Origin: Labrys monachus
GTDB taxonomy: Bacteria > Pseudomonadota > Alphaproteobacteria > Rhizobiales > Labraceae
NCBI RefSeq assembly: GCF_030814655.1
Contig: NZ_JAUSVK010000001.1
Coordinates: 6,455,001 to 6,519,000 of the forward strand
Length of the DNA: 64,000 nt
Direction of reading: 5' to 3'
Positions 9,701 through 23,328 of this stretch are shown piece after piece. Made by a program: the position numbers and the translations under genes. The notes under the pieces were generated by a model. That model did not search any database, was not told the origin of the DNA, and saw only the letters and a list, made by a program, of their open reading frames with translations. The stretch's first letter is position 1; every line of letters starts with the position of its first letter.

Positions 9701-9848
9701 ACTGGCCGGCGCCGTGCTCGCCAACCGCCATCTCCTCGCCGAGGAGGACCCGGCGCTCGAACTCGCCCGGCTGCTCGGCGTCGAGCGCCTGGCGGCCATC
9801 TCCCGGACCCGGCTCGACCAGGCGATCGCGCGGGCGAAGAGGGCCTGA
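3756..9848 (+). CDS. Giant DUF4011/DUF3320 SF1 helicase with MTES_1575 endonuclease-like domain
   Basis: 2030 residues from a GTG preceded by GGAAGCAAGGGG. Order of parts: an N-terminal region with a Cys...GHAxxGVW pattern (Cys233, His259) like the transglutaminase-like fold of DUF4011 helicases; Walker A GPPGTGKS at 700-707; a long insertion; Walker B FDEAS near 1327-1331; motif III GDPKQLPP near 1352; helicase motif VTRARQEL near 1570; a Vsr/MTES_1575-type restriction-endonuclease fold at about 1629-1720 (FRVDIGI, VECDG, LGWEIVRVWSTDWW); a Glu/Pro/Ala-rich linker with seven 6-residue repeats; and a DUF3320 domain from about 1875. The helicase motifs are complete, so it should be an active ATPase on nucleic acid. 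Relatives occur in bacterial genome islands, some linked to phage defence or DNA repair. No cognate methylase or second defence gene adjoins it, so a defence role is unproven. Confidence 0.9.
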   Translation: MDDEEAVAADGAATSLPVVEIEADIAPSFTYASFQNAIPVLRAVSIHNPTAEGFERCTLEMTSSPPFLRPKTWTVDRLAAGDRLPLADRRVDLDSAYLAGLDEAERGEIALKLSAGGAVLAERRVPVRLLARDEWGGVADMAQLLPAFVMPNDPAVARILKTAAERLAAHGHASGLDGYQSGDPRRAFLLAASVYSAVAAMALHYAEPPASFESRGQKIRRPSTIAQEGLATCLDTALLFGAALEAAGLHPVMLLFDGHAAAGVWLTKRTLPSAIERDAMEIRKALASRELVVFETTGVTHRPPLTMEHAQRLVERRLEEGQAAAFVAAIDVRRSRSGGITPLASHEPAPADGADEAGATIELPLPPAPDLPVEVVEVKPTTAAGRIDRWQKKLLDLTLRNRLLNFPDTKKTIPFLCTDISALEDRLAAGASIRLISLPEHNPLGGRDPGLYREVSGRDLDRHFAAEALQRDELASPLDARTLETRLVDLYRQVRSDFAEGGANTLFLAVGFLRWKKKPEDERSYRAPLLLVPVKLDRRSASSRFALKFHEDEPRFNATLLQFLERDFDLALNLFDGGLPRDESGVDVPRVLGAVRHAVRDVPGMEVVDEAALSTFSFAKYLMWKDLVERSGALRQNRVVRHLIETPDQAFDPGGKPFEDERELDRRHAPQDVVSLLPADSSQIAASLAAAEGRDFIIVGPPGTGKSQTIANMIANCMAAGRTVLFVAEKTAALDVVYRRLREHGLGDHCLELHSSKADRRSFLGQLRKAWESGGQADNSGWIAINEKLRLRRDELNAYVEALHRPHGNGLTAYEALGIALRNQEAHAPALSWPALDAHDAAALARLEEIAAEIGIVHGAVDDRPALRLVDAGEWSSAWQDGLLAAAAALRSAAGVLRAALGRFLGRIGLAFRDDAGLAELKRLSAFAEALLAGTGSDHFILFDRDFAQLRPALAELEAAIEDYGAAEGRLSASFARDEVPRIPVGELDGQWKDAAASLWPVRWAGRRRVQKQLQAHAAAGVADPETDLPLLRRMQDRLAAIDGNLLAGKAVAFAGLDTDVAVLNRRLAHAAHLRATLLQLGREPEEIRAIGRAVAPFVRGAMEDPVHPAALDYAAAFAAFLAAADDFARLAGRDPAGPEGDALLAGLMAAMAGLADARPLLRDWTSWCRVRRSAEAHGLAGLVGDVEAGRVRPDATKAAFRLAYRRWWLPLAIDADPVLREFRRFQHEHAIRDFRAIDAMVRAQAAARVIGAIAHGLPAVQAVPRQSELGLLRHQMELQRPSRSIREMIGAMPGSFARLAPCMLMSPLSIAQYLPPDQALFDVVIFDEASQITTWDAVGAIARGRQTIIVGDPKQLPPTNFFGRNEAEDEDVAEHERDLESILDEAKAAGIPMRDLRWHYRSRHESLIAFSNSHYYRNRLITFPSPAVEDRAVRLVSVPDGVYDRGKSRTNRIEARAVVAEALVRLRAWLQLPEAERPTLGVITFNSQQQGLIQDLFDEARRAAPALEWFFADERIEPAIVKNLENVQGDERDVMLFSITFSQDAAGKRVMDFGALNREGGERRLNVAVTRARQELLVFSGFTADQIDTGRVKAAGIRDLKTFLDFAERGAVALPAQDEGSVGALESPFEEAVAAELDRLGWQTVPQVGISGFRVDIGIRHPDRAGTYLAGVECDGATYHSSATARDRDLVREQVLRGLGWEIVRVWSTDWWFDPKGTAERLHAALAILLETSRQKRAAEEAAALAARLAAEPPPAPAELPAAEESALEPEEAPPVPAGPAETDETEAREAEPVPESAPDAARPLAEALPAVEEAPPVLEEVPVLEAVPVLEAVPVLEAVPVLEAVPVLEDPPVLEEPPPFPASPIPYRLADFSAHRLEPDRFHEADYRGTLMAMVEAVLEAEAPLREDILAQRIARAHGWLRTGAKIRERVAAHLGDVERTREAGGDFIWRRGTVTEIIAYRAPHDIEGRRAIAEIPLAELAGAVLANRHLLAEEDPALELARLLGVERLAAISRTRLDQAIARAKRA
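9207..9332 (+). repeat. Seven 18-bp in-frame tandem repeats inside the helicase gene
   Basis: The unit CCGGTCTTGGAAGCAGTG recurs seven times without gaps: three exact copies (9243-9296), one with a single change (9225), and three more divergent outer copies. It encodes a (P)VLEAV-type hexapeptide array in the linker between the nuclease-like domain and DUF3320. The near identity at DNA level suggests recent slippage expansion, and copy number may vary between strains without breaking the frame. Confidence 0.9.
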
Positions 9849-9880
9849 GCGCCCGACTGAAGGCTCGCAGGGCGACGCCC

Positions 9881-9923
9881 TTTGTCATTGCCGGGCCCGC
9901 CCCTGCAATCCAGGGGCGGGCAG
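9881..9923. repeat. REP-like palindrome downstream of the helicase gene
   Basis: A GTCATTGCCGGGC head is followed by a perfect 10-bp stem (CCCGCCCCTG, 5-base loop, CAGGGGCGGG) at 9896-9920. There is no T run, so it reads as a dispersed extragenic palindrome rather than a classical terminator. It separates the convergent helicase and aldo/keto reductase genes and may serve both as a transcript end. Confidence 0.6.
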
Positions 9924-9942
9924 GGCGCGATCAGGGCCCGCT

Positions 9943-10983
9943 CTACCAGCGGGTCGGCTTGGGGTTGCGCTCGTCGAAGTCCATCTGGTGCCAATAGGGA
10001 TAGACCGGCTGGCGGCGGCTGGCGGCATCGAGCCGGGCGACCTGGTCCGCCGTCAGGCTCCAGCCCAGGGCGCCGAGATTGGCGCGCAGCTGCGCCTCGT
10101 TGCGGGCGCCGACGACGATGTTGGCCACCGTCGGCCGGCCGAGCAGCCAGTTGAGCGCCACCTGCGGCACGGTCTTGCCGGTCTCCTGCGCGACCGCGTC
10201 CAGCACGTCCACCACGGTGTAGAGCAGCTCCTCGTCGACCTGCGGGCCGCCGGCGGCGCCGCCCGAGGCGATGCGCCCGCTCTGGTCGGGCTGGCCGCGC
10301 CGGATCTTGCCGGTGAGGCGGCCCCAGCCGAGCGGGCTCCACACCATCAGGCCGACGCCCTGGTCGAGGCCGAGCGGCATCAGCTCCCATTCATAATCGC
10401 GCCCGACCAGCGAATAATAGCCCTGATAGGCGACATAGCGGGCGAGGCCGTATTTCTCCGAGGTCGCCAGCGCCTTCATCAGGTGCCAGCCGGAGAAGTT
10501 GGAGGCGCCGATATAGCCGATCTTGCCGGACGTCACGAGGTCGTCCAGCGCGCGCAGCGTCTCCTCCACCGGCGTCGTCGCGTCGAAGCCGTGCATGAAA
10601 TAGAGGTCGATATGGTCGGTGCCGAGCCGCTTCAGGCTCGCCTCGCAGGCGCGGATGAGGTGGAAGCGCGACGAGCCGACGCCGTTCGGCCCCTCGGCGC
10701 TGCGGAAGGTCGCCTTGGTGGAGATCAAGGCCTTGTCGCGCCGGCCCTTCAGCGCCGCACCGAGCACCTGCTCGGAGCCGCCGGCCGAATAGACGTCCGC
10801 CGTGTCGAAGAAATTGACGCCCGCCTCCAGGCAGATGTCGACGAGCCGCGTCGCCTCCTCGATCCCGGTGCCGCCCCATTTGTCGAAGAATTCATTGCCG
10901 CCGGCGAAGGTGGCGGTGCCGAAGCTGAGAACCGGCACCTTGAGGCCCGAGCGCCCGAGCTGGCGATATTGCATGTCAGTCAT
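9943..10983 (-). CDS. Aldo/keto reductase
   Basis: 346 residues, cytoplasmic, a (beta/alpha)8 NADPH-dependent carbonyl reductase. The catalytic tetrad is visible: Asp and Tyr in FFDTADVYSAG, Lys in LISTKATF and His in YFMHGFD. The C-terminal cofactor-binding segment (NIVVGARNEAQLRANL) is present. Closest in type to the AKR families that include YajO/IolS-like proteins; the substrate is unknown. The start MTDMQY is 2 bases after the stop of the ArsR-type gene, so the two form one operon and the reductase is probably under that regulator. An in-frame ATG three codons later is an alternative start. Confidence 0.9.
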   Translation of the reverse strand: MTDMQYRQLGRSGLKVPVLSFGTATFAGGNEFFDKWGGTGIEEATRLVDICLEAGVNFFDTADVYSAGGSEQVLGAALKGRRDKALISTKATFRSAEGPNGVGSSRFHLIRACEASLKRLGTDHIDLYFMHGFDATTPVEETLRALDDLVTSGKIGYIGASNFSGWHLMKALATSEKYGLARYVAYQGYYSLVGRDYEWELMPLGLDQGVGLMVWSPLGWGRLTGKIRRGQPDQSGRIASGGAAGGPQVDEELLYTVVDVLDAVAQETGKTVPQVALNWLLGRPTVANIVVGARNEAQLRANLGALGWSLTADQVARLDAASRRQPVYPYWHQMDFDERNPKPTRW

Positions 10984-10985
10984 TC

Positions 10986-11294
10986 CTATGCTCCGGATTG
11001 GTTGAGGATGGCGGCGAGCAGGCCGGGAAAACGGCCCTCGATCTCCTCGCGGCGGACGACGTTGACCACCTCCACCCCGCGCTTCTCGGAGCGGATCAGC
11101 CCGCTTTCGCGCAGGATGCGATGGTGATGCGAGACGGTGGAAGGCGGCATGTCGGCGCAGCAGCGGCTGCAATTCATGCCGCCTTCCACCATCAGCTTGC
11201 GCACGATGGCACGCCGCGCCGGATCGGCCAGCGCATGGAGCACCCCGTCGAGCGTGATGTCGCCGGCGGCCGGATGGAGAAAGACTCGCGCCAT
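10986..11294 (-). CDS. ArsR-family winged-helix repressor with a Cys cluster
   Basis: 102 residues. The ArsR/SmtB fold is seen in LADPARRAIVRKLM (helices 1-2), the recognition helix PPSTVSHHHRILRESGLI and the beta wing (SEKRGVEVVNV). A cluster of three cysteines (NCSRCC) lies just before the recognition helix. In classical ArsR proteins the metalloid-binding cysteines lie in a comparable place, so thiol or metal sensing is possible. It is the first gene of a two-gene operon with the aldo/keto reductase. The 174 bases upstream hold the shared promoter region. DNA binding is confident; the inducer is inferred. Confidence 0.9.
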   Translation of the reverse strand: MARVFLHPAAGDITLDGVLHALADPARRAIVRKLMVEGGMNCSRCCADMPPSTVSHHHRILRESGLIRSEKRGVEVVNVVRREEIEGRFPGLLAAILNQSGA

Positions 11295-11468
11295 GCCGCG
11301 GTTATGGCAGGAAATTTCGGCGTTTCAAGAGTATTGAAATAGGGGGGCGTCGCGAATGCGTGTGCCCTTCGCTCGCTGCGAAGCGCCAGGCCAGCCCTGG
11401 AGCGGAAAGCGACTTTCCCAACTTCAGTTTCGGCCCTGCCATCCGCCACCGGCTGTGTCTGGGCGCCG

Positions 11469-12689
11469 CTACAGCCAGGGCGGCAGTTCGAACGCTGCGT
11501 CGGCGAACGGCTCCGGTGCGATGAGTGCCGGCGGATCTTCCGGTTCGCGCAGCTGGTAGAACAGATGGGGAAGGCCCAGAGAGGGATCGCGGGTGGCGTC
11601 GGGATAGGGAACGGCCGCCTGCCATTTCGGATGGTAGCGGACGGTGCCCGCGACGCTGCGATAGGGCAGGTTGAGCAGGACCTTCGCAATGCGGCGGTTG
11701 ATGGCGAACGCGCCCGGTCCGCCGGTGCCGCCCGCGACGGAAGCGGCGATGGCGTAATGGTGCATGGACGAATAGGGCTGGCAGCCGATCTCCGGCGTCG
11801 TGTGCGGGCCGAATTTCGCCTTGTAGGTCTGCGCGAAGTGCCGGCCCATCTCGTCGCGCGGCAGGCCGATGACGGTGCCGACGATGGCGCCTCGCCCCTT
11901 GTCGCCGACGATGTTGGAGAAGGTGCGGTGAAGCGCGCCATATTGCAGGTAGACGAGGCAGGACATCGGCGCCTCCATGAACTGCAGATGGAATTTGGCG
12001 AGATCGCCGGCATGGAACTGCGTGACGGCCAGCACGGCCGGGTCGTGCCGGCGGACCTCCTCGATGATCGGGCGCCAGTCATTCACCATGGTACGGATGA
12101 TTCGCGGCGGGAAGGGCAGTTGCCATCCGAATTCGGACGAGGCCGAGGCCATCGCATTGGCGATGACGATACTGTAGGGCTTGGGTCCCGAAAGGATGGC
12201 GATCCTGCGGTTGTGCGGCTTCCACTGGCCGCTCTCGCTCAGCCAGGAGAGGAATTTGATGAAGCCCTGGCCATACCAATATTCCGCCGGGTCTCCCATG
12301 AAGCAGCCGAAATAGCGGTCCGGATCGCTGGCGACCGTGTCGTGGTGCTGGAGAAGGGTGTTGTGATGGATGTAGATCACACCGGCATCGGCGATCGGCT
12401 CATATTCGGAATTCTGGGGCCCGATATTGTAGCCGTTGATGATGGCGTGGACCCGGTGCTCGCGGATGAGAATGCGCGCCGCGCGGACCACTTCTTCGGC
12501 CGTCTGCCGGCCGGAATCGATGAAGACCGGCCTGAGGGGGCGTCCCAGAATGCCGCCCTCCGCATTGATCTCGTCCACCGCGAGTGTCAGCCCGTTGCGG
12601 AATTCGCGGCCGTCATTGGCCGACGTGCCCGAGAGCGGAACCATGCTTCCGATCGGGATGGGCTCCTGCGTCGTCGAGGCCTCGGTCAT
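11469..12689 (-). CDS. Urea/amide-type periplasmic-binding-fold protein without signal peptide (probable cytosolic sensor)
   Basis: 406 residues of the type I binding-protein fold used by urea, amide and branched-chain amino-acid receptors. The protein starts MTEASTTQEPIPIGSMVPLSG, going straight into the first beta strand, with no Sec or Tat signal. Shared islands with the exported receptor encoded at 15279 (WKPxNxR, VNDWxPxI, LVYLQYG) show that they are paralogues. Its ATG overlaps the kinase stop as ATGA, so it is translated with the kinase. Known precedent: AmiC of Pseudomonas, a cytosolic amide sensor of this fold. I infer it reports internal amide to the adjacent soluble kinase. It could instead be a receptor whose signal was lost. 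Confidence 0.85.
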   Translation of the reverse strand: MTEASTTQEPIPIGSMVPLSGTSANDGREFRNGLTLAVDEINAEGGILGRPLRPVFIDSGRQTAEEVVRAARILIREHRVHAIINGYNIGPQNSEYEPIADAGVIYIHHNTLLQHHDTVASDPDRYFGCFMGDPAEYWYGQGFIKFLSWLSESGQWKPHNRRIAILSGPKPYSIVIANAMASASSEFGWQLPFPPRIIRTMVNDWRPIIEEVRRHDPAVLAVTQFHAGDLAKFHLQFMEAPMSCLVYLQYGALHRTFSNIVGDKGRGAIVGTVIGLPRDEMGRHFAQTYKAKFGPHTTPEIGCQPYSSMHHYAIAASVAGGTGGPGAFAINRRIAKVLLNLPYRSVAGTVRYHPKWQAAVPYPDATRDPSLGLPHLFYQLREPEDPPALIAPEPFADAAFELPPWL

Positions 12690-14242
12690 GATAGTTCCGG
12701 CACCAGTTCGGGCTCGAAAAGCAGATTGTGCATGACGACGCGCAGGCCCGAAGGGCTGACGGGCTTGATCAGGACAGGAAAGCCCTGTCCGCGGATGGAC
12801 GCAATCAGGTCCGGCGAGGTGTCGGCGGTGACCACGACGGCGGGGCACGGCAGTTCGAGCACGTCGTTGATCTGGTTGACGGCGTCGGTTCCCTGCACGC
12901 CGCCTCTCAGGCGGTAATCCGTGATGATGATGTCCGGCCGGCCCGCCAGGCCGGCGACGCGGGCCGCGATGTCGTCGAACACCTCGAGGGTCAGCACTTC
13001 GATTCCCCATCGCTCGAGGAGCGTGGTGAGGGCGTTGCGCAGATGGACGTCGTCCTCCAGCACGAGGCATGCGAGCCCGGCAAATTCCCCGCCGATCCTT
13101 TCGTTGATCTCCTGCACGCCGACGGTGCTGTGCCAGACATTGCCGATGGGCACGTCGATGGCGAACAGCGAGCCCATCCCCGGCCGGCTGTCGACGAGGA
13201 TGGGATGGCCCAGCACATGCGCGAGCCGCTTGGCGATGTTCAGCCCCAGGCCGAGGCTGTGCTTGCGATAGTCCTGCTGCTCGGCGATGCGGAAGAATTC
13301 GTCGAAGATCGCCTCGTGAAATTCCTTCGGGATGCCGCATCCGGTATCGTAGACCCCGATGCGCAGCAGGTGTCCGCGCCGCCGGCAGCCAACGAGCACG
13401 CGCCCCACCTCGGTGTAGCGCAGGGCATTGCCGAGGAAATTGCCGAGGACGCGCTCGAGCAGCACGCGATCGCTCTTCACCGCGGCCTTCGAAGGAAGGA
13501 TGCGCAGATCGAGGCCCTTCTCGCGGGCCTGGTGATCATATTGCACCCGCAGCCGTTCCAGCACCGAGGCCAGCTGGAACGTGGTGACATTGGCCTCGAC
13601 CTTTCCGGCGTCGAGCTGGCCGATGTTCAGCAGGGCGCCCAGAAGGTCCTCCATGATGGCGACCGACACGTCCATCGCATGGAGCGCCTGGCTGCGCTCC
13701 GCCTCGTTCGTCGAGGCGATGCAGCTGTAGATCAGGATCTTGAGGGACGCGAGCGGCTGGCGCAGATCATGGTTCGCTGCGCGCAGGAATCGCGATTTGG
13801 TCTGGTCCGCGGTCACCGCAGAGTCGCGGGCCCGTTCCAGGGCGCGGGCATTGCGCGTGGCGTCCGTCGCGTCGAGGCAGAGCGTGACCGTGCCGCCGCC
13901 GCGCGACGGCGAGCCCACGATGCGGCACACGGTGCCGTCGGAAAAGACCATCGTCCGGCCGGAGAGGATATCGAGGCGGCCGGCATCGGCAGGCTCGCCG
14001 CCCGCTTGGCTGGACTGCACGAGCAGGCCGGACTGCTCCACCAGGTCGAGGAACTGGCGCTGACCGATGCCCGCGGGAATCGACCCGGCGAAACAGTTGA
14101 ACAGCCGCGCGAAGGCCGGATTGCAGGTGAGGAGCGTGCCGTCCGGCGACCAGAGGGCGGCGCCATGGGCGAGGCCCATGAACGCTTCGGCATCATGAGC
14201 GAGATGCTGGGGTCCTGCTTGCTCCTCGCCGGGCTGTTCCAT
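12686..14242 (-). CDS. Soluble PAS hybrid histidine kinase (PAS-HisKA-HATPase-REC)
   Basis: 518 residues from MEQPGEE. Order: a PAS-like domain (about 20-140; MGLAHGAALWSPDG), HisKA with the phospho-acceptor His in NHDLRQPLASL, HATPase_c with the N box NFLGNALRYT and G1 box YDTGCGIP, then a receiver domain with the phospho-Asp in IIITDYRLRGG and the conserved Lys in VLIKPVS. No membrane segment is present, so it acts in the cytoplasm. An upstream TTG (14329) would extend it inside the preceding regulator gene; the ATG at 14242 already overlaps that gene by 50 bases. The co-translated binding-fold protein downstream is the likely sensory partner. Target: the LuxR-type regulator upstream (inferred). 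Confidence 0.88.
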   Translation of the reverse strand: MEQPGEEQAGPQHLAHDAEAFMGLAHGAALWSPDGTLLTCNPAFARLFNCFAGSIPAGIGQRQFLDLVEQSGLLVQSSQAGGEPADAGRLDILSGRTMVFSDGTVCRIVGSPSRGGGTVTLCLDATDATRNARALERARDSAVTADQTKSRFLRAANHDLRQPLASLKILIYSCIASTNEAERSQALHAMDVSVAIMEDLLGALLNIGQLDAGKVEANVTTFQLASVLERLRVQYDHQAREKGLDLRILPSKAAVKSDRVLLERVLGNFLGNALRYTEVGRVLVGCRRRGHLLRIGVYDTGCGIPKEFHEAIFDEFFRIAEQQDYRKHSLGLGLNIAKRLAHVLGHPILVDSRPGMGSLFAIDVPIGNVWHSTVGVQEINERIGGEFAGLACLVLEDDVHLRNALTTLLERWGIEVLTLEVFDDIAARVAGLAGRPDIIITDYRLRGGVQGTDAVNQINDVLELPCPAVVVTADTSPDLIASIRGQGFPVLIKPVSPSGLRVVMHNLLFEPELVPELS

Positions 14243-14957
14243 CGGAATCACTGCTCGCCGCCTGTGCGTCCAACGCCGTCTCATTTTCGACCGCAAATCG
14301 AATAGCGCTTTCTCTAGTGCTGACGTCAAGCTTTTTCATGGCATTGCCCAGATGTACGCGGACGGTCTGGCGGCTGATGTCAAGCGCTTCAGCTATATCG
14401 AGAACCGAACTTCCACGCCCGAGCAGGCCGAGGATTCGGCTCTCGCGCGGCGTCAGGGACGAGAGCCGCGCGTCTGCGCCGGCTATCGGCCTGGCGTCCG
14501 CATGGGTGTCGTCCGGCCTGGCGCGGGCGATGATCTCGCGCGGGAAGGAAACGCCGCCGGCGACGACCAGTTCGAGGGCCCGCTTGATCTCGTCGGCATT
14601 CGCCGATTTCGGGATGTAGCCGATCACGCCGTGCTGGATGGCGCGCAGGACATAGTCGGGATCCTCATGGATCGAGACGATGACGACAGGCACGGCGGGA
14701 TGCTTCCGGCGGATGACGCGCAGCCCGTCGAACTCGCTGAACCCGGGCATGACCAGGTCGAACAGAAGCAGATTGATGTCCGGATTGCTCTCGAGCATCT
14801 GCAGCGCTTCCTGAAACGTCGCTGCCTCGACGGTGCGGACGTCGGCTTGGAGGCTCGTGGCAACCTGCCTGAGCGATTCCCGCACGACCCAGTGGTCGTC
14901 GGCGATGAGGATCGTCAGGTCGGTGGCCCTTGCAGCGGTCGATTCGGAGGCAGTCAT
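14193..14957 (-). CDS. NarL/LuxR-type response regulator of the amide locus
   Basis: 254 residues. An N-terminal receiver holds the acidic pair in LIADDHWVVRE, the phospho-Asp in LLFDLVMPG and the Lys in GYIPKSA. A C-terminal GerE/LuxR helix-turn-helix follows: LTPRESRILGLLGRGSS, then ALDISRQTVRVHLGNAMKKL. It leads a three-gene minus-strand operon with the hybrid kinase and the binding-fold sensor, divergent from the transporter/DMFase operon. In Paracoccus a LuxR-type protein (DmfR) is reported to control dmfA1A2, which fits the location here. Start chosen at MTASES; an in-frame ATG at 15005 adds 16 residues unlike a receiver. A DNA target at 15109-15125 is proposed. Confidence 0.88.
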   Translation of the reverse strand: MTASESTAARATDLTILIADDHWVVRESLRQVATSLQADVRTVEAATFQEALQMLESNPDINLLLFDLVMPGFSEFDGLRVIRRKHPAVPVVIVSIHEDPDYVLRAIQHGVIGYIPKSANADEIKRALELVVAGGVSFPREIIARARPDDTHADARPIAGADARLSSLTPRESRILGLLGRGSSVLDIAEALDISRQTVRVHLGNAMKKLDVSTRESAIRFAVENETALDAQAASSDSDGTARRGASRTPASRS

Positions 14958-15108
14958 ACTGGTCTCATGGCAGACGTGCGCCGGGCGAAAAAGCTTCGCA
15001 GGCATACGCGCTTTCGCGGTCGTTTCTTCGCTTGAATGCCCAAACGGCAGTTCTCCATACCCGAGTGCCTAAAGCTTGACTATCCCCTGCCGAAAAAACC
15101 AGCACCGA

Positions 15109-15166: not shown

Positions 15167-15278
15167 TAGATATAAGAACAGAACATTCAGTCCAGATGTC
15201 GTGTTAAATGTCTATAAAAAGCAATCGCTCGACCGCCGCCCTTGATGGCGGCGGCAGGCGAACCAGACGAGGGTGAAC

Positions 15279-16613
15279 ATGAACAATCCAGACCAAGCCG
15301 CCGCAGATCAAGCCGCCGCAGACCGGGGCGGCGTCACGCGGCGCATGGCGTTCAAGGTTGCAGCCGGGGCGGCCGTGGCCGGCATCGCGGCGCCCGCGAT
15401 CGCCCAGGGCATGAAGGACAAGATCCTGATCGGGGTGCCGTCCTCGCTCTCCACGCCCTACGGCGTCGCCGACGATACCGATCATCTCAACGGCACGAAG
15501 CTGGCCATCGAAGAGATCAACGCGGCGGGCGGCGTTCTCGGACGCGAGCTCGACATCTTCGTTCCCGATGTCGACAAGCTCTCCCCGGAGAGCTGCAGGC
15601 AGGCGATCGCAGCCTGCATCGACAAGAAGGTCCTGGCGATCTCGAACTCGTTCCTGTTCGCGCCCATCCCGGCGCTCGACGAGTCCGCCAAGTACAAGTG
15701 CCCCTATCTGCAGGGAAACACCCAGCGTCAGGCGACGGAGGCCTACAAGGCCAACCCCGACAAATACAGCCATGTCCTGCAGACCGACCCTTCCGAGGTG
15801 AACTATGGCTGGACCTATCCCGTCTGGCTCAAGAAGATGGAGGAAACCGGTGTCTGGAAGCCGAAGAACAAGCGGGTCCACATCGTCTCCGAGCAGGTCG
15901 GCTACAATCAGACCATCCTCCGGGCGGCCAAGGAAGCACTCGCCAAGCACGGTTTCGAGCCACCCATCCTCACCGACATCCAATATCCGGTGAACGACTG
16001 GAGCCCGGTCATCCAGAAGCTCAAGGAAGCGGATGCCGGCGCGATCATGATCAATCACTGGGTCGCGTCGGAATTCGCGGCCTTCTGCAAGCAATTCGTC
16101 GCCGATCCGGTTCCGGGCGCGCTGGTCTACCTGCAATACGGCCCGTCGCAGCCGGAATTCCTCGAACTGGGCGGCAGCGCGACGGAGGGCTTCTGCTGGA
16201 GCACCGTCCTCGGCGTCTACGGGGACCAGCGCGGACAGGACTTCCGCAAGAAGTACACCGCCAGATATCCGGAGTTCGCCGGGAATATGGGCCTCGTCTA
16301 TACCGGCAACGGCTATGACATCGTCCAATATCTCAAGCTCGCCTGGGAGGCCACCAAGGCGCCCGAGGATTTTGCCGCCAACGTCAAGTGGATCCGCAAC
16401 AATCCCTATCGCGGCGTCTGCGGCCTCATGAACATGAACAACGCCTATCAGGAGGCAGTGCACTATCCCGACAACGGCTTCGGCAATCAGGCCACCGAAC
16501 TCGAAAAGGGGATGAGCCAGCTCTTCGTGCAGGTCCAGGACGGCCACCACAAGATCATCTGGCCGAACGAGATTGCGGAATCGACCCTCAAGGCGGCCCC
16601 CTGGTGGGCCTGA
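15279..16613 (+). CDS. Tat-exported urea/amide-type ABC substrate-binding protein
   Basis: 444 residues. A twin-arginine signal (TRRMAFKVAAG, then a hydrophobic run to PAIAQG near residue 42) targets the folded protein to the periplasm. The mature part is a type I binding protein of the urea/short-chain amide (UrtA/FmdD-like) group, with NGTKLAIEEINAAGGVLGREL at the first lobe and NDWSPVIQKL and ALVYLQYG further on. The ATG at 15279 follows GACGAGGG; a GTG two codons earlier is less likely. It heads an operon with two ATPases, two permeases and a DMFase-like enzyme, so its ligand is probably the enzyme's amide substrate. Urea itself is less likely because no urease gene is present. Confidence 0.92.
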   Translation: MNNPDQAAADQAAADRGGVTRRMAFKVAAGAAVAGIAAPAIAQGMKDKILIGVPSSLSTPYGVADDTDHLNGTKLAIEEINAAGGVLGRELDIFVPDVDKLSPESCRQAIAACIDKKVLAISNSFLFAPIPALDESAKYKCPYLQGNTQRQATEAYKANPDKYSHVLQTDPSEVNYGWTYPVWLKKMEETGVWKPKNKRVHIVSEQVGYNQTILRAAKEALAKHGFEPPILTDIQYPVNDWSPVIQKLKEADAGAIMINHWVASEFAAFCKQFVADPVPGALVYLQYGPSQPEFLELGGSATEGFCWSTVLGVYGDQRGQDFRKKYTARYPEFAGNMGLVYTGNGYDIVQYLKLAWEATKAPEDFAANVKWIRNNPYRGVCGLMNMNNAYQEAVHYPDNGFGNQATELEKGMSQLFVQVQDGHHKIIWPNEIAESTLKAAPWWA

Positions 16614-16615
16614 CC

Positions 16616-17332
16616 ATGGCGGAGCCGCTCTTCGACTGCCGGAATCTCGCGCTCGACCTCGGCGGGCGTGAGGTTCTGCGCAACATCGGTTTCTCCCTCC
16701 GGCCCGGCGAGGTCCTGGGCATCATCGGGCCGAACGGGGCCGGCAAGACGAGCCTGCTCGAGATCCTGTCGGGGCGCTACCGGCCCAAGACCGGCACCGT
16801 CCGGTTCAAGGGGCGCGACGTCACCGGGCTCCCGCTCTTCGAGCGCGCGCGCCTCGGGCTGGGGCGGACCTACCAGACACCGATCATCTGCGAGGACCTG
16901 ACGGTGGGGGAGACGTTCAAGGCCGCCCGGCAGGCCTATCGGCCCTATCTCACCCGCTTCGATGCGGAATACGGCGCGGCGCTGGTGAATTTCGTCGCCC
17001 CCTACGACACGCCGAACACCCGGCTCAAGACATTCGAACGGCGCAAGCTGCTGATGGCCAACCTCCTGATGCGCAAGCCCGAGCTGTTGCTGATGGACGA
17101 GCCCGCCGCCGGCCTCATCAACGCCGAGATCGACCAGATCGACCAGATCCTGCGCATGCTCTCCAAGGAGATGAATGTCGCGGTCGTCATCGTCGAGCAC
17201 CGCATGGAACTGCTCGCCTCCATCGCCGACCGGGTGATCGTGATGGATGCGGGCGACATCATCGCGGAAGGGCCGATGCAGGACGTCATCAACAGCCCGG
17301 CCGTTCGTGCCGCGTATTTCGAGGCGCATTGA
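16616..17332 (+). CDS. ABC ATPase, LivG/UrtD type, with degenerate signature motif
   Basis: 238 residues. Walker A is GPNGAGKTS (near residue 40), the Q-loop lies in GRTYQTPII, Walker B is LLLMDEPAAGL and the switch His is in VVIVEHRME. The ABC signature expected as LSGGQ (LAYGxQ in LivG) reads LKTFERRK, so the Ser/Gly that contact ATP across the dimer are missing. The partner ATPase downstream has a normal LSGGE. One of the two composite ATP sites of the heterodimer is therefore probably impaired, as in asymmetric ABC transporters. The start ATG lies 2 bases after the receptor stop. It is the cytoplasmic energy subunit of the uptake system. Confidence 0.92.
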   Translation: MAEPLFDCRNLALDLGGREVLRNIGFSLRPGEVLGIIGPNGAGKTSLLEILSGRYRPKTGTVRFKGRDVTGLPLFERARLGLGRTYQTPIICEDLTVGETFKAARQAYRPYLTRFDAEYGAALVNFVAPYDTPNTRLKTFERRKLLMANLLMRKPELLLMDEPAAGLINAEIDQIDQILRMLSKEMNVAVVIVEHRMELLASIADRVIVMDAGDIIAEGPMQDVINSPAVRAAYFEAH

Positions 17333-17345
17333 GCGGAGGGTGGAC

Positions 17346-18053
17346 ATGTCCGACATTCTGGTGATCGACGGCCTCTCAGCCGGCTACGGACCGCTGCGCG
17401 TCATCCATGATCTCGACCTCGTCATCCGGTCGGGCGAGCGGGTCGGCATCGTCGGGCTGAACGGCCATGGCAAGACCACGCTGCTCTATGCCATCGCCGG
17501 CCTCACGGGGTGGCAGCGGGGATCGATCCTCCTGAACGGCGAGGAGATCGGCCGCACACGCAGCCAGGGGGCGGGGCGCTATACCCACCAGATCGTCCGC
17601 AAGGGCCTGGCGATCATGCCGCAGGGCGACGAGATCTTCAACGGATTGACGGTCGAGGAACATCTGGACAGCGGCGCCTTCACCCGCGAGGCCTGGCGCG
17701 ACCGCAAGGCCCGCAAGGAACGCGTCCTCGATCTGTTCCCGCCCCTCCGGAAGCTGACGAGGACGGCGGTGGGGCGGCTGTCCGGCGGCGAGCGGCGCAT
17801 GGTGTCGATCGGGCGCGGCCTGATGACGGATGCAAAGCTCTATCTCGTCGATGAGCCGTCGCTCGGGCTGGCGCCCAAGATCGGCCAGAGCGTGATGGAA
17901 GCCCTGCTCGCGCTCGACCTCAAGGACAGCGCCATGTTCATCGCCGAACAGAACGTCGCCCTGCTCGAAGGGCGCGTGGACCGCGTCATCGGCATGCATG
18001 CCGGCAAGCTCAAGGGGGAGGCGTCCTCCTCCTTCAATCTCACCAAGGCATGA
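17346..18053 (+). CDS. ABC ATPase, LivF/UrtE type
   Basis: 235 residues with a complete ATPase set: Walker A GLNGHGKTT, Q-loop in MPQGDEIFNGLTVEEHL, signature LSGGERRM, Walker B LYLVDEPSLGLAPK and switch His replaced by Gln (FIAEQNVAL), which is usual in LivF proteins. GCGGAGGG precedes the ATG. Thirteen bases separate it from the first ATPase gene. It forms the heterodimeric motor with that protein for the two permeases that follow. The assignment to the HAAT (amino-acid/amide) ABC family is firm; the amide substrate is inferred from the operon. Confidence 0.93.
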   Translation: MSDILVIDGLSAGYGPLRVIHDLDLVIRSGERVGIVGLNGHGKTTLLYAIAGLTGWQRGSILLNGEEIGRTRSQGAGRYTHQIVRKGLAIMPQGDEIFNGLTVEEHLDSGAFTREAWRDRKARKERVLDLFPPLRKLTRTAVGRLSGGERRMVSIGRGLMTDAKLYLVDEPSLGLAPKIGQSVMEALLALDLKDSAMFIAEQNVALLEGRVDRVIGMHAGKLKGEASSSFNLTKA

Positions 18054-18066
18054 TTGGAAAGCCGAG

Positions 18067-18948
18067 ATGGAACTGACGTTCGTTCTCATCAATGCCGTCG
18101 TGGTCGCGTGCATATACGGGCTGATCGCCGTCGCCGTGTCGATCACCTGGTCGAGCCTCGGCCTGATCAATCTCGGATACGGCTTCATCTTCTCCTTCGC
18201 CGGCTACGGCGCCTATGTCGTCGCGCTCTATCTCACCAGGATGCCTGTCCTCGTGGCGGCCGCCGGCATCCTCACCGGCGCCCTCGGCGGCATCCTGATG
18301 TGCCTCCTCGTCTTCATCCCCCTGCACGATAAGCCGAATTTCACCACCCGCGGCATGATCGGCACGCTCGCCATCAGCCTGATGGGCTCCCAGGCCCTGC
18401 TGCTGCAGTTCGGCCCGCGTGCGAAGTCGCTGCCGGAACTCTTCGGCTCGAAGAGCATCCATATCGGCGCAACGGTGCTCACCGCCGACAAGATCGGCAT
18501 CGTCGTGTGCTCCGTCGCCATGCTCTCCTTCGTCGTCGCCTGGATGAAGGGCAGCCGCCGCGGCCTGGAGATACGGGCGATGATGATGAATCCGCATGCC
18601 GCCTCGATCGTCGGCATCGGCATCCGCAAGACCGGCCTCTATGTCATGGCGGTGACCGGCGCCATGGGGGGGCTTGCCGCCGTGCTGCTCTCGCAGACCT
18701 ACTACGTTTCCCCCTTCAGCGGGCTCACGCCTCTGATCAAGGGGGTCTCGATCGCGCTCTGCGGCGGTCTCGGCAGCGTCCAGGGCGCGGTGATCGCCGC
18801 CGCCATCCTCGGGCTCACCGAGGCCGTGACCTCGCGCTATCTCGGCGGCCAATACGTCCTGATCACCCAGTTCCTCGTCATCATCTGCATTCTGATCATC
18901 CGGCCCCGCGGCATTTCGGGCCTGCTCGACAAGGGGCGCGAACAGTGA
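18067..18948 (+). CDS. ABC permease, LivH/UrtB type
   Basis: 293 residues, hydrophobic throughout with about 8 membrane spans. It begins MELTFVLINAVVVACIYGLIA and carries the conserved GLINLGYGFIFSFAGYGAYV stretch of the LivH family near residues 35-55. The C-terminal ISIALCGGLGSVQGAVIAA-like segment couples to the ATPase. The stop codon overlaps the next gene's GTG start as GTGA, so the two permeases are translationally coupled. Role: half of the translocation pore. Confidence 0.92.
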   Translation: MELTFVLINAVVVACIYGLIAVAVSITWSSLGLINLGYGFIFSFAGYGAYVVALYLTRMPVLVAAAGILTGALGGILMCLLVFIPLHDKPNFTTRGMIGTLAISLMGSQALLLQFGPRAKSLPELFGSKSIHIGATVLTADKIGIVVCSVAMLSFVVAWMKGSRRGLEIRAMMMNPHAASIVGIGIRKTGLYVMAVTGAMGGLAAVLLSQTYYVSPFSGLTPLIKGVSIALCGGLGSVQGAVIAAAILGLTEAVTSRYLGGQYVLITQFLVIICILIIRPRGISGLLDKGREQ

Positions 18949-20603
18949 GCGACGCATTCAAGAAAGAACCCCTGACCTGGCACAACCCGCTGTCGGCCTG
19001 GGGCACGGCCGAGGGGCTCGACGAAGTCCCATCCGTCACCGTGCCGGATCCGCGCGAGGCTTGGGATGCCAATACGCGCTACAAGGTCAAGACCCACAAG
19101 GTCGGCCGGCTCAAGCACTACGTCGTCTGGCCCCATCACGGCGAGAAGCTGTGGTCGCGCTGGCGCTGGTGGCCGACGCGGCGCAATGTCCTGCACATTC
19201 ACGGCCTCTACAACCGCAAGACGCTCGCGGCAGAGAAGAAGATCGACGATCGCCGGCCCATCTACTGGATGATCTGCCTGCTTCTCCTGGCGCTCGGTCC
19301 GTTCCTCTTCCCCGAAAGCATGCAGAACACCCTGCTTTCCGCCGGGGCGATCTTCGGCATCTTCGCGGCCATCAATGTGTGTTGGACGCTGATCCTCGGC
19401 ACCGCCAGCATCTTCTCCCTCGCCACCTACGCCGTGGTCGGGGTCGCGGCCTTCATCACCACCTGGCTTTCCATCCGGCTCGGATTGCCCTGGTACCTGC
19501 TGCCGCCGATCGGCACGGCGCTCGGCTTCGTCATGGGGGCGCTCATCGCCGTTCCGGCGCTGCGCCTCGACGGTTTCTATTATGCCCTGCTCACCCTGGG
19601 GCTCAACGAACTCTGCCGCGTCTTCTTCACCACCTCCAAGCTTTTCGGCTCGGCGTCCGGCGGGCTCTACGGCGCCGACTCCTACATCCCCGACTGGCTG
19701 TCCCCGATGGGGCAGTCCTGGCTCGGCTATTACGGGGCTTTCGCCCTGCTGCTGGCCGCGCTCTTCCTCTTCCGCTTCATCAACGGCAAGCGGCTCGGGC
19801 GCATCCTGCGCATGGCGCCCGAGAAGCGCGAGGCCTTCGCCCAGGCCTGCGGCGTCGACTACCGGCGCGCCCGCGTGCAGATCTTCCTGATCACCTCGGC
19901 GGCGTTCGGCTTCATCGGCGGGTTCTACGCGGCGCAATATCGCGGCGTCGCCTTCTCGATCTTCGGCTTCGACACCGTGCTGCTCGGCCTGGCGATGCTG
20001 ACCATCGGCGGCATCGGCAAGGCCGAAGGGGCGATTCTCGGAACGCTCGTCGTCACCTTCCTCGACAAGGTTCTCATCGATCTCGGCCCGCTGCGCCACT
20101 TCCTCATCGGCCTCATCATGCTGGGCGTCGTGCTCTTCCTCAACAAGGGCTATTTCGGCATCAAGAAGCAGTTCGACGCCTGGCGCGACAAGAAGCGCGG
20201 CGAGTGGCGCTCGCTGCGCTCGGAGAAGGGCGGCGAGGCGCTCCCGGAGGAGGCGACCGAGATCGACGACAAGGACGAGTTGTTCTTCCGCCGCTTCGAC
20301 AAGGTGCAGCGCGACCATCTGAAGAAAATGATCTGCCCGGAGATCATCGAGGAGCATCGCCGCCGGCCGCTCGGCCAGCACAGCGAGGCGCTCGAACGGG
20401 TGCTCTATTATTTCAGGCGCTCGCCGATGGAGGACAAATATGCGCTTCACCACATCGCGGCGACGGACCGCTACCGCATCATCGCCTTCTCCGGCAAGCG
20501 AGGCGTGTCCCCCCGCGTGGTGGAGGACAGGGAATATGTCACGATCGAGGACGCCTATCACGGCATCTTCATGCGCCGCATCCACGACCTCATGGAGTCG
20601 TGA
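18945..20603 (+). CDS. LivM-type ABC permease fused to a DMFase small-subunit-like C-terminal domain
   Basis: 552 residues, far longer than usual LivM permeases (about 300-400). Residues 1-104 are a soluble Trp/Arg-rich extension; the membrane part starts at PIYWMICLLLLALG (about 105) and holds the LivM core (IFSLATYAVVGVAAF, GLAMLTIGGIGKAEGAILGT); a charged cytoplasmic linker follows at about 405-450. Residues 451-552 align with the stand-alone DMFase small subunit encoded next: both have FDK, EEHRRRPxGxHSEAL, RVLxYFRR, RYRI and an AYHGxFxRxxxDLME end. The tail probably docks the hydrolase to the membrane complex (inference). The GTG start overlaps the upstream stop. I know of no described permease with this tail, though I cannot search. 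Confidence 0.9.
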   Translation: MSDAFKKEPLTWHNPLSAWGTAEGLDEVPSVTVPDPREAWDANTRYKVKTHKVGRLKHYVVWPHHGEKLWSRWRWWPTRRNVLHIHGLYNRKTLAAEKKIDDRRPIYWMICLLLLALGPFLFPESMQNTLLSAGAIFGIFAAINVCWTLILGTASIFSLATYAVVGVAAFITTWLSIRLGLPWYLLPPIGTALGFVMGALIAVPALRLDGFYYALLTLGLNELCRVFFTTSKLFGSASGGLYGADSYIPDWLSPMGQSWLGYYGAFALLLAALFLFRFINGKRLGRILRMAPEKREAFAQACGVDYRRARVQIFLITSAAFGFIGGFYAAQYRGVAFSIFGFDTVLLGLAMLTIGGIGKAEGAILGTLVVTFLDKVLIDLGPLRHFLIGLIMLGVVLFLNKGYFGIKKQFDAWRDKKRGEWRSLRSEKGGEALPEEATEIDDKDELFFRRFDKVQRDHLKKMICPEIIEEHRRRPLGQHSEALERVLYYFRRSPMEDKYALHHIAATDRYRIIAFSGKRGVSPRVVEDREYVTIEDAYHGIFMRRIHDLMES

Positions 20604-20633
20604 CCATGGCCGTCCGCGTGGGGATTGATGAAC

Positions 20634-21014
20634 ATGAGTGAGATGGCAGCGCCGTCCGCCGACGACCAGACCGACCGCGACGTCGTCTACCGTGCCTATT
20701 TCGACAAGATGACACGCACCTATCTGCGCCGCCTCGTCGACGACGGCCTGATTGAGGAGCACCGCCGCAGGCCCGTGGGACGCCACAGCGAGGCACTCGG
20801 CCGGGTGCTCGCCTATTTCAGGCGCCTGCCCGCATCCCGGCAATATCTGCTCCACCGGCTTGCCGACGGCAGATACCGGATCATGGCGATGACGCGTGCG
20901 GCGCGAGACCGCCCGGAAGACGGGGAAGGAGCCGTCTTCGATACGCTGGAGGCCGCCTACCACGGCGTATTTCTCAGGAAAGTCAAAGATCTGATGGAAC
21001 TCGACAATGGCTGA
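20634..21014 (+). CDS. dmfA1: N,N-dimethylformamidase small (alpha) subunit
   Basis: 126 residues, helical and charged, matching the about 15-kDa light chain of bacterial DMFases. The core EEHRRRPVGRHSEALGRV, YRIMAM and YHGVFLRKVKDLMEL resemble what I recall of the Paracoccus/Alcaligenes light chain (HP...LQRV.NYFR, YRIA, AVFLRRIEDV). ATG 20634 is preferred because GGGGA lies about 9 bases upstream; ATG 20628 is an alternative. The gene overlaps the large-subunit gene by 8 bases (ATGGCTGA), so the two chains are made together. It is also homologous to the tail of the preceding permease. Whether the substrate is DMF, formamide or another amide is not settled by sequence. Confidence 0.85.
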   Translation: MSEMAAPSADDQTDRDVVYRAYFDKMTRTYLRRLVDDGLIEEHRRRPVGRHSEALGRVLAYFRRLPASRQYLLHRLADGRYRIMAMTRAARDRPEDGEGAVFDTLEAAYHGVFLRKVKDLMELDNG

Positions 21015-23328
21015 ACAGAAACTGTTCGGATACGCGAACAAGATAACCGTCAAACCGGGCGAAACGATCACCCTGCACGTCAACGCGGACGGAGCCGATT
21101 TCGCCGACGCCCATCTGGTCCGCCTCGTCCATGGCGACGGCCACAAGGACGGGCCGGGCTTTGTCGAGCGCGAGATCTCCCATCCCGACAACGGGCGCTG
21201 GGCCGTGAAGAAGCAGTTCACCCAGCTGGGCAATTTCCTGTCGGTCGACGACCCCCGGCAAACCCTGAAGATGGAGGGGTCGCTGACCATGTTCGCCTAT
21301 GTCTGGCCGACGATGCCGAAGAAGGGCAAGCGCCAGACGATCATGGGCCGCTGGGACACGCTCACCAATGAGGGCTTCGCCCTCGGCATCAATCCGCAGG
21401 GCTATCTCGAATTCTGGGTGGGCGACGGCAAGAACGTCGACTACGTCACGGCCGAATTGCCGCTGATCAAGATGGTCTGGTACTTCGTGGCGGTATCCTT
21501 CGACGTGACCACCAGGACGGCGACGCTCTACCAGGAGGGCGTGCTCAACCGCTATAATTCCCTGATCGGCACGGTGGTGCCCTACGAGTTCGCCTCGCAT
21601 GTCCGCACGACCTTCCGTTTCGTGCAGCACAACAGGCCCGATACCCCCTTCGTCATAGGGGGCGCGCGCGACCGCCACGAATTACGCGGACCGTTCATCA
21701 ACGACCTGTATTCCGGCAAGATCGATCGGCCGGGCTTGTGCAGCCGCGTGCTGACGCGCGGGGAACTCGATGCCTGCCGCGGCGGAGCCGCGGCCCCGTC
21801 CGATGCCCTGGTGGCCTTCTGGGACACCTCGGCCGGCTATTCGGAGAACGGCATCGGCAACAGGGTGGTCGACACCGGTCCTAACGGGCTTCACGCCGTG
21901 GGCGTCAACCATCCGGTGCGCGGCATGACCGGGTGGAACTGGAAGGGCAAGAACGATTGCTTCCGGCTCGCGCCCGAGGAATTCGGCGGCATCGAATTCC
22001 ATGCGGACGCGGTCACCGACTGCCGATGGGACGTTACCCGCACGATGACGATCCCGCTGGATCTGGCGAGCGGCATCTATGCCGTCCGCCTGCGCATCGG
22101 TGCGGGAACGGGGCTCGGCGAGGACTATATCGTCTTCGTCGTGCGGCCCGCCAAGCCCTCGGCCAAGCTGTGCTTCCTGGTGCCGACGGCGAGCTATCTC
22201 GCCTATGGCAACGAGACGCTCAGTTTCGACGCGCAGATCATCCAGCCGATGACGGGGCAGCCGCCGGTCGTCACCGACATCGACATCGAGACCTACGAAC
22301 ACGGCGAATTCGGCTTCTCCACCTACAATAATTTCGAGGACGGTGCAGGTGTCTGCTTCAGTTCCTACAAGCGGCCCGTGATCAACATGCGTCCCAAATA
22401 CCGCATGTCGAGCATGAACATCACCTGGCAGTTCCCCGCCGATCTCTCGATCGTCGCCTGGATCGATCACTGCGGCTATGAGTGCGACTTCATCACCGAC
22501 GAGGATCTGCATCGCGACGGCCTGGAGGCGATCAGCGCCTACAACTGCGTGCTGACCGGCACCCATCCCGAATATGTGTCGGAGCGCATGCTCGACGCCC
22601 AGGAGGATTTCGTCGCGCAGGGAGGGCGCCTCGTCTACATGGGCGGCAACGGCTATTATTGGTGCGTCGGCTTCACCCCGGACGACCCGGCCTGCATGGA
22701 GGTCCGCAAGCTCGATTCGGGGATGCGGGCCTGGGCGGCGAAATCAGGCGAGCATTATCTGCAGTCCACCGGCGAGAAGAGCGGGCTGTGGCGCAATCGC
22801 GGGCGCGCGCCGCAGAAGCTCCTGGGCGTCGGGATGATTTCGGAGGGCTTCGAGACCTGCGCGCCCTACCGCAAGATGCCGGATGCGTATCATCGCACCG
22901 TCGCCTGGATCACCGAAGGAATCGACGGCGAGATCATCGGCGATGCGGGCCTCGCTTACGGCGCCGCCGCCGGCATCGAGATCGACCGCTACGATCTCAG
23001 TCTCGGCACGCCGCCGCACACGAAGATCATCGCATCCTCCGGCGGACATTCGGACAATTACGTGCTGGTCACCGAGGAGATCCTCTATGCCTATGCGGGA
23101 ATGGTGGGATCGATCGACTACCGTATCCGGGCCGATATGACCTACTTCACCAGCAAGGGCGATGGTGCGGTGTTTTCGACGGGCTCCATCGCCTTCGGCC
23201 AGTCCCTGCCTGCCCACGGCTTCCGGAACAATGCTTCCAGGCTGCTCCGGAACGTGGTCGACGCCTTCATCAAGGATGGCCCGCTGCCCGGCAAGCGGTG
23301 GACCCTCGAAGAGAAGCTCTGGCGGTAG
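21007..23328 (+). CDS. dmfA2: N,N-dimethylformamidase large (beta) subunit
   Basis: 773 residues, close to the about 760 of known DMFase heavy chains. The N-terminal half contains a concanavalin-like beta sandwich (about 85-270; SLTMFAYVWPT, GFALGINPQGYLEFWVGDG). The C-terminal half is the hydrolytic domain (LCFLVPTASYLAYGNETLSF, FITDEDLH, VLTGTHPEYVSERM, GGNGYYW). In the Paracoccus enzyme a mononuclear iron is held by two Tyr and a Glu; by position Tyr400, Tyr440 and Glu522 are the candidates here. It hydrolyses N-substituted formamides to formate and amine in family members. No signal peptide, so cytoplasmic. It is the last gene of the uptake operon; no formate or dimethylamine catabolic gene follows. 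Confidence 0.9.
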   Translation: MAEQKLFGYANKITVKPGETITLHVNADGADFADAHLVRLVHGDGHKDGPGFVEREISHPDNGRWAVKKQFTQLGNFLSVDDPRQTLKMEGSLTMFAYVWPTMPKKGKRQTIMGRWDTLTNEGFALGINPQGYLEFWVGDGKNVDYVTAELPLIKMVWYFVAVSFDVTTRTATLYQEGVLNRYNSLIGTVVPYEFASHVRTTFRFVQHNRPDTPFVIGGARDRHELRGPFINDLYSGKIDRPGLCSRVLTRGELDACRGGAAAPSDALVAFWDTSAGYSENGIGNRVVDTGPNGLHAVGVNHPVRGMTGWNWKGKNDCFRLAPEEFGGIEFHADAVTDCRWDVTRTMTIPLDLASGIYAVRLRIGAGTGLGEDYIVFVVRPAKPSAKLCFLVPTASYLAYGNETLSFDAQIIQPMTGQPPVVTDIDIETYEHGEFGFSTYNNFEDGAGVCFSSYKRPVINMRPKYRMSSMNITWQFPADLSIVAWIDHCGYECDFITDEDLHRDGLEAISAYNCVLTGTHPEYVSERMLDAQEDFVAQGGRLVYMGGNGYYWCVGFTPDDPACMEVRKLDSGMRAWAAKSGEHYLQSTGEKSGLWRNRGRAPQKLLGVGMISEGFETCAPYRKMPDAYHRTVAWITEGIDGEIIGDAGLAYGAAAGIEIDRYDLSLGTPPHTKIIASSGGHSDNYVLVTEEILYAYAGMVGSIDYRIRADMTYFTSKGDGAVFSTGSIAFGQSLPAHGFRNNASRLLRNVVDAFIKDGPLPGKRWTLEEKLWR

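Follow-up and report, generated by a model that had tools for sequence, protein, structure and literature searches.

The small subunit of an N,N-dimethylformamidase-like enzyme as a C-terminal domain of an ABC permease in Labrys monachus and other bacteria

Introduction

Why should the permease of a nutrient importer end in a subunit of a hydrolase? This question is raised by a locus of Labrys monachus, found in a stretch of 64,000 nucleotides (positions 6,455,001 to 6,519,000 of contig NZ_JAUSVK010000001.1; called the window here, with coordinates counted from its first letter), where the gene of a LivM-type permease of an ATP-binding cassette (ABC) importer precedes those for a small and a large subunit of an enzyme like N,N-dimethylformamidase (DMFase). 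A first-pass annotation of the letters of this DNA had proposed that the permease carries, in its tail, a built-in docking copy of the enzyme's light chain. Our computational analysis shows that the tail is a conserved and separately folded small-subunit domain, which is under strong purifying selection and tied to the large-subunit gene. We furthermore consider it probable that the large subunit binds this tail and that an iron amidase thereby forms at the cytoplasmic side of the importer encoded with it.

Results

Sequence and fold of the permease tail

The tail of the fused protein contains, in this order, FDK (residues 451-453), EEHRRRPLGQHSEAL, YRI, and AYHGIF...DLME. When its 119 residues were aligned with the free protein encoded next, 53 of 116 positions were identical (46%, 99.8 bits, E = 3e-33), which confirms the shared motif order that had been noticed between residues 451-552 and the free protein. 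The solved small subunit of DMFase (6lvb_B) was matched separately by the free chain (E = 2.6e-9) and by the tail (phmmer, E = 1.1e-9), and neither of the two small domains gave a Pfam or NCBIfam model above its cut-off. Chance or low complexity as the origin of the likeness between tail and free chain is ruled out by their alignment together with the separate matches to 6lvb_B.

In the AlphaFold2 model of the window permease, which was built on 45 aligned sequences with a mean predicted local distance difference test score (pLDDT) of 79.5 and a predicted template-modelling score (pTM) of 0.62, the tail is composed of helices at residues 443-462, 465-473, 481-492, and 534-551 and strands at residues 497-504, 509-516, and 524-531. 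This secondary structure is near the published description of the DMFase small subunit, namely four helices and two strands with a long helix at each end (PMC7686228). Indeed, the best PDB match of the whole-permease model in Foldseek was 6lvb_B (E = 8.4e-5, TM of 0.80 over the target, 2.5 Å, 119 columns), and the structural similarity of tail to small subunit, on which the first-pass annotation had staked its proposal, is thus present.

The fused gene belongs to a single tight gene run on the forward strand (15273-23328), in which importer genes are followed by DMFase-like genes:

15273-16613 (+): substrate-binding protein (Peripla_BP_6, Pfam E = 1.2e-28); nearest solved structure by sequence 3h5l_A (E = 5.8e-44), a putative branched-chain amino acid ABC transporter
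16616-17332 (+): open reading frame of a LivG-type ATPase
17346-18053 (+): open reading frame of a LivF-type ATPase
18067-18948 (+): LivH-type permease (BPD_transp_2, E = 4.8e-27), sharing its last 4 bases with the fused gene
18945-20603 (+): LivM-type permease fused with the DMFase small-subunit tail, 552 residues, GTG start
20244-20600 (+): the tail itself, a DMFase small-subunit domain (residues 434-552)
20628-21014 (+): free copy of the DMFase small subunit, overlapping the next gene by 8 bases
21007-23328 (+): DMFase-like large subunit, 773 residues (DMFA2_C, E = 5.9e-89)

Both ATPases owe their labels to gene order and to similar ATPases in this position in related loci rather than to a family search, and their starts were inferred from the frame. 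The free chain starts at ATG 20628 (128 residues) or 20634 (126 residues).

Distribution of the fused permease

We queried the genome contigs of 84,980 species with five fused tails and obtained 84 relatives, of which 80 were kept. The domain was on the permease in 74 of the 80 loci and was not fused in six, namely L062, where the permease lies in a separate adjacent frame, and L108-L112; the fused share is biased upward because the search was seeded with fused tails. In terms of gene order, 50 loci have the fused gene followed by the large-subunit gene, 14 have a free small subunit between the two as in the window, nine have a large subunit, a free small subunit, and another large subunit after the fused gene, and one is a fused gene at a contig end. 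The large-subunit gene thus follows in 73 of the 74 fused loci, with the contig stopping there in the remaining one, and the permeases with this tail beside DMFase genes, for which the first-pass annotation had suggested a database search, do exist in number. Furthermore, the substrate-binding protein, LivG, LivF, LivH, the tailed LivM, and the large subunit were all contained in the fetched stretch of 60 of the 74. An assembly accident in the L. monachus genome is ruled out, since the fusion is shared by these 74 loci from other records.

The fused loci belong to Alpha-, Beta-, and Gammaproteobacteria (SAR11 included) and to one Gemmatimonadales contig from a metagenome-assembled genome (MAG); Rhodobacter, Roseovarius, Bradyrhizobium, Rhodopseudomonas, Methylocella, Hyphomicrobium, Methyloligella, and Pelagibacteraceae are among the record names of the scan loci. 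In a plasmid collection, 37 records matched the tail, and 26 of them did so over its whole length at 60% identity or more; 24 of these 26 are annotated there as branched-chain permease and two have no annotation. All four loci examined among the 26 were fused (L022, L023, L024, and L030), and all seven examined among the other 11 were free (L025-L029, L031, and L032). Among 100 related genomes, the domain was present in 11 including that of the window; one (G042) of four other loci examined was fused, and the six remaining frames, with 103-194 residues, are too short for a fused permease. Also, six of 147 SAR11-family genomes had the domain, namely the centre genome, which had been picked as fused, and five with frames of 123-143 residues. 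The fusion is therefore patchy yet wide.

In 50 of the 74 fused loci, we saw no second small subunit in the DNA fetched: tblastn with 12 small-subunit queries at E = 0.01, run on these stretches and not on the rest of the genomes, gave only one marginal match, of 63 residues in L052 (E = 0.005). These stretches reach at least 1 kb beyond a complete large-subunit gene in 44 of the 50, and the contig ends within that gene in L059 and L071.

Some of the records deserve a remark on their names. A locus in a record titled Oceanobacillus (L033) is fused with a tail 83% identical to that of the window, and another in a record titled Klebsiella pneumoniae MAG (L071) is fused on a contig of 3,457 bases; both look like contamination or misassignment. 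In Halalkalicoccus jeotgali (L025:9779-10321), a protein annotated as an inner-membrane translocator is a free DMFase small subunit of 180 residues with no membrane segment evident by eye, and the name was perhaps carried over from fused permeases. The fusion further suggests that certain small-subunit homologues bear wrong membrane-protein names in databases.

Evolution of the tail and selection on it

A midpoint-rooted tree was constructed from 122 small-subunit domains (80 fused and 42 free) over 120 columns; with so few columns for the rows and such a root, its deep forks are weak and long free branches are possibly misplaced. All of the fused tails fall in one block of 107 rows (99/90), in which 27 free domains are nested: 16 copies of the window type (96/90), nine second copies from the operons with two large subunits, L026, and L062. 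The fork of those nine (82/91) is not firm, and L026 (Caballeronia) is on a long branch. The label of fused or free changes five times on the tree, and four of these changes are forced by firm branches. In the simplest reading, a single fusion came first and free copies were regained later.

We then compared the ratio of nonsynonymous to synonymous substitutions (dN/dS) in 89 pairs with permease identities of 85-99.5%, taking medians from comparisons with dS of 0.05-2 (81 for the tail, 81 for the permease core, 74 for LivH, 77 for the large subunit, 26 for free copies, and 21 for second large subunits). The median was 0.035 for the tail, 0.052 for the permease core, 0.052 for LivH, 0.067 for the large subunit, and 0.158 for free copies. 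A calculation over all of the pairs (1300 pairs; 0.279 for the tail, 0.299 for the core, 0.266 for the large subunit, and 0.419 for free copies) was set aside, as dS is saturated at such distances. Between the window and Ensifer adhaerens M8, identity is 91% for the tail and 58% for the free chain.

The primary small subunit thus seems to be the tail, with the free chain as a later copy, because no second copy was found in those 50 loci, the tail has the lowest median dN/dS, and the free copies of the window type are nested among the fused ones. The docking copy of the first-pass annotation is borne out as to its light-chain fold and its tie to the large-subunit gene, but it does not look like an addition to a separate true light chain: of the two, it is the free chain that is nested and that evolves faster.

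Large subunit and its iron site

The 773-residue protein matched 6lvb_A across residues 6-762 (E = 1.9e-167); together with the match of the free chain to 6lvb_B, this agrees with the earlier identification of the two proteins as DMFase chains. The iron ligands of the reference DMFase are Y399, Y440, and E521, and H519 is essential; in the alignment, the window large subunit keeps them as Y400, Y440, E522, and H520, and the pocket residue F693 is replaced with Tyr. The three-domain fold was modelled for a Methylocella relative (L057; TM of 0.95 to 6lvb_A), the window protein being judged by sequence alone. The four catalytic positions are retained by the window protein and by each of the 64 complete large subunits that come from scan loci with one large-subunit gene. 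A count of rigid iron-site motifs, in which 33 of 82 had all three, overlooked variants, and the alignment was used in its place. The large subunit of DMFase purified without the small one is described as inactive (PMC7686228).

Probable association of the tail with the large subunit

When the tail and the large subunit of L057 were folded by AlphaFold as one chain (929 residues, 72 rows), the model reached a pLDDT of 86.2 and a pTM of 0.87, with stretches under a pLDDT of 50 at residues 121-157 (the artificial linker), 842-858, and 924-929. The tail would appear to be placed against the large subunit in this model, because a floating tail with its linker (156 residues) would cap the pTM at about 0.83 by our arithmetic. 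Furthermore, in the 50 loci with one large subunit and all parts present, the distances of the tail gave a partial r of 0.42 with the large subunit versus 0.10 with the concatenated transporter. This distance correlation lends moderate support only to a link between tail and large subunit.

Operons with two large subunits

All four catalytic residues are present in 73 of the 82 complete large subunits of the scan. The nine without the full set are exactly one per operon with two large subunits (L085, L087, L091, L092, L096-L098, L102, and L106), each of which hence combines one broken with one intact iron site. The broken chain adjoins the fused tail in eight of the nine, with Phe or Leu in place of Tyr399 and Arg in place of His519, and is the second large subunit in L085, where Cys replaces Tyr440. 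Also, the Aminobacter plasmid pMDW2 (L023) encodes two large subunits, the second with Ala replacing the glutamate. Since every operon of this kind encodes one chain that is probably non-catalytic, the two may form a mixed dimer, in which docking and catalysis would be divided. As for L023, its operon adjoins propionyl-CoA synthetase and haloacid dehalogenase genes, pMDW2 is typed as conjugative, and strain MDW-2 is mentioned in a review of methomyl degradation.

Importer genes and neighbours in the window

The gene run of the window holds a complete Liv/HAAT ABC importer set, namely a substrate-binding protein, two ATPases, and two BPD_transp_2 permeases. In the fused protein, Pfam assigned BPD_transp_2 to residues 137-395 only, and the window permeases missed the NCBIfam cut-offs for LivM, UrtC, LivH, and UrtB; with 50.9 of 366 bits for LivM and 38.8 of 296.2 bits for UrtC, the fused permease is by these models not a LivM or UrtC proper. 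The next best match to its core in the same genome is merely 30% identical.

A hybrid histidine kinase and a LuxR-type response regulator are encoded divergently from the operon (12686-15005, reverse strand) and are possible regulators; a histidine kinase also adjoins the Methylocella locus L057. The L. monachus genome furthermore contains a second DMFase-like pair (L017; G000 C1:784000-800000), in which the large subunit is 36% identical and the small chain is free, next to distantly Liv-like ABC genes and with no fusion.

Discussion

How would such a fused protein work? In the mechanism that we propose, the LivM-type permease of a Liv/HAAT-type importer would bear the small subunit as its C-terminal cytoplasmic domain, and the large catalytic subunit, supplied by the same gene run, would dock on this tail beneath the pore in the manner of 6LVB, so that the hydrolase would be tethered to the membrane in the cell. 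DMFase itself is an alpha2beta2 assembly, with its small subunit wedged in between the large ones. The gain would be a trapping effect, in which a small, leaky, and neutral amide is hydrolysed fast before diffusing back. Two importers would share one dimer of large subunits, or a free chain would fill the second small-subunit place, perhaps in the clade of the window, because one importer would offer one tail and the enzyme dimer has two places. If the family is alike and has no copy elsewhere, an operon with the tail only would need its tail, because the large chain alone is inactive (PMC7686228). That the fusion occurs both in soil bacteria and in ocean SAR11 points to an enzyme constructed on its importer. 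Going further, the permease could be a translocation subunit and an obligate enzyme subunit at once, with import and amide cleavage as one vectorial step in a widespread class of importer, but we advance this wider reading tentatively and would not bet on it. Within it, the operons with two large subunits would point to an asymmetric complex, in which a chain with a broken iron site is docked and the other one is catalytic.

Several points weigh against assembly on the importer. The position of the tail relative to the membrane part is uncertain because of the pTM of the full permease model, and its placement in the cytoplasm is our assumption from the basic linker and the topology of the family. 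In the L057 model, the chains were joined via a stop read as Gly, and the contact is predicted from the pTM of the joined chain. The distance correlation weakens with equal columns: draws favoured the large subunit in 20 of 40 at 119 columns, 26 of 40 at 200, and 30 of 40 at 330, where control pieces of the transporter with 119 columns favoured it in 2-16 of 40. The dN/dS pairs are not independent, many being from SAR11, and in the group with two large subunits the tail is less constrained than the permease (0.077-0.106 versus 0.042-0.050 for the core in the L087 pairs). Relatives in Paracoccus, Caballeronia, and Rhodococcus have free small subunits and no annotated ABC permease adjoining, a Methylobacterium DM1 plasmid has a free chain, and for N-acetyl-(R)-beta-phenylalanine acylase, whose large chain is related, no small chain is named among the entries. 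Tethering is therefore not needed for catalysis, given these relatives with a free or no small chain. In the DM1 plasmid (L028:13231-14079), an unfused LivM-like gene with a core 26% identical to that of the window lies downstream of the free small and the large subunit, an arrangement that is possibly like the state before the fusion.

Alternatively, the small-subunit fold might serve as a gate, by which the importer is slowed or opened in response to hydrolase occupancy or substrate level, and tethering would then be secondary. Other ABC importers are indeed regulated by C-terminal cytoplasmic domains, and the tail shares one chain with the permease. A pure gate, nonetheless, would not need the tie to the large-subunit gene in 73 of 74 loci, the tail retains the residues that do not vary when five fused tails are compared with five free chains, and the failure to find a second small subunit nearby in 50 loci also argues against it; we hence regard a regulatory tail as unlikely. 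Fusion for expression only, which would fix stoichiometry or couple translation with no spatial role, would be consistent with the short gaps or small overlaps frequent in these operons between the fused gene and the next and with the existence of free-standing versions. A subunit fixed to a membrane permease sits at the membrane whatever the reason for the fusion, however, and both groups with an added free copy constrain the tail more than the copy in the pairs shown (free copies in the L087 pairs, 0.144-0.253), so this explanation likewise strikes us as unlikely. A functionless relic beside a working free chain, to which the presence of both in the window might point, is rejected, chiefly by the tail having the lowest median dN/dS of the parts measured, and also by the comparison with Ensifer M8 and by the 50 loci where no free chain was found. 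Binding of the large subunit to the tail thus remains the reading that we prefer.

In terms of substrate, DMFase splits N,N-dimethylformamide (DMF) into dimethylamine and formate. The Paracoccus enzyme prefers N-methylformamide, with a catalytic efficiency of 6166.7 versus 256.5 on DMF (PMC7686228, Table 1), and AceAB, which is highly similar to DMFase according to a passage of a review, is stated there to be inactive on DMF (PMC11573777); therefore, homology does not settle the substrate. Neighbouring genes in SAR11 provide a hint. In nine of 11 SAR11 loci, a gene for a type III glutamine synthetase was found downstream, the contigs of the other two ending earlier, and a gene like the GXGXG-domain gene of L068 is present in seven of the 11. 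The order in L065 is glutamine amidotransferase, GXGXG-domain gene, glutamate-synthase-like gene, and glutamine synthetase, and in L064 the glutamine synthetase directly follows the large subunit. Also, an Amt gene is upstream in four of the five SAR11 loci having upstream DNA, L067 having other genes there. For SAR11, glxBCD-glnT has been proposed as a methylamine module (PMC3160333), and on these grounds an amide releasing ammonia or methylamine would be expected. No such nitrogen-module neighbour was found among the few genes checked in the window, and the non-SAR11 loci inspected gave no consistent hint of substrate from their neighbours.

A rhodopsin cluster reported with a drawn link to the membrane lists an inner membrane translocator and N,N-dimethylformamidase (PMC10308929). 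In the SAR11 genome G102 (L130; C1:20000-39000), we noticed, on the reverse strand at 5742-12562, a second rhodopsin, a neighbour of 662 residues whose place and size agree with the published flotillin, and then a free DMFase small subunit (8122-8541) and a large subunit recognised by eye (5742-8099). The translocator listed in that cluster may be this soluble small subunit under a wrong name.

Transport is coupled to a cytoplasmic partner at the membrane in FocA with pyruvate formate-lyase, AmtB with GlnK, and group translocation by the phosphotransferase system. The partners in these are separate proteins or parts of dedicated phosphotransfer systems, whereas a hydrolase subunit is here covalently part of an ABC importer. 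Liv/Urt-type importers (LivJFGHM, UrtABCDE, and the amide importer FmdDEF) share with the window the gene set, the BPD_transp_2 permeases, and the Peripla_BP_6 binding protein, and differ in having no enzyme subunit fused at the C terminus of the permease. The Paracoccus DMFase (DmfA1/DmfA2; PDB 6LVB) shares, from its description in PMC7686228, the fold of the small subunit, that of the large subunit as modelled for the Methylocella relative, and the iron site of two tyrosines and one glutamate with the essential histidine at the same places; its small subunit, however, is not fused, and in the part of pAMI2 examined dmfA1 has no genes of an ABC importer beside it. The acetamiprid amidase AceAB is likewise described as a two-subunit amidase, and the passage on it in PMC11573777 does not describe it as fused with a transporter. 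No account of a fusion between DMFase and an importer was found in the open-licence literature searched on dimethylformamidase and importer-enzyme fusions. The enzyme, the type of importer, and the coupling with a transporter are hence each known, and their covalent union is new as far as we have seen.

Conclusions

If the large subunit does bind the tail, a natural ABC importer would be covalently part of a catabolic enzyme across several proteobacterial classes including SAR11, and the fusion makes it possible to ask by clean genetics whether it matters that import and hydrolysis are physically coupled. The SAR11 loci furthermore provide a lead to dissolved amides as a marine nitrogen source; indeed, if import and cleavage are one vectorial step, SAR11 would possess a machine that feeds amine from dissolved amides into the adjacent methylamine/ammonium module.

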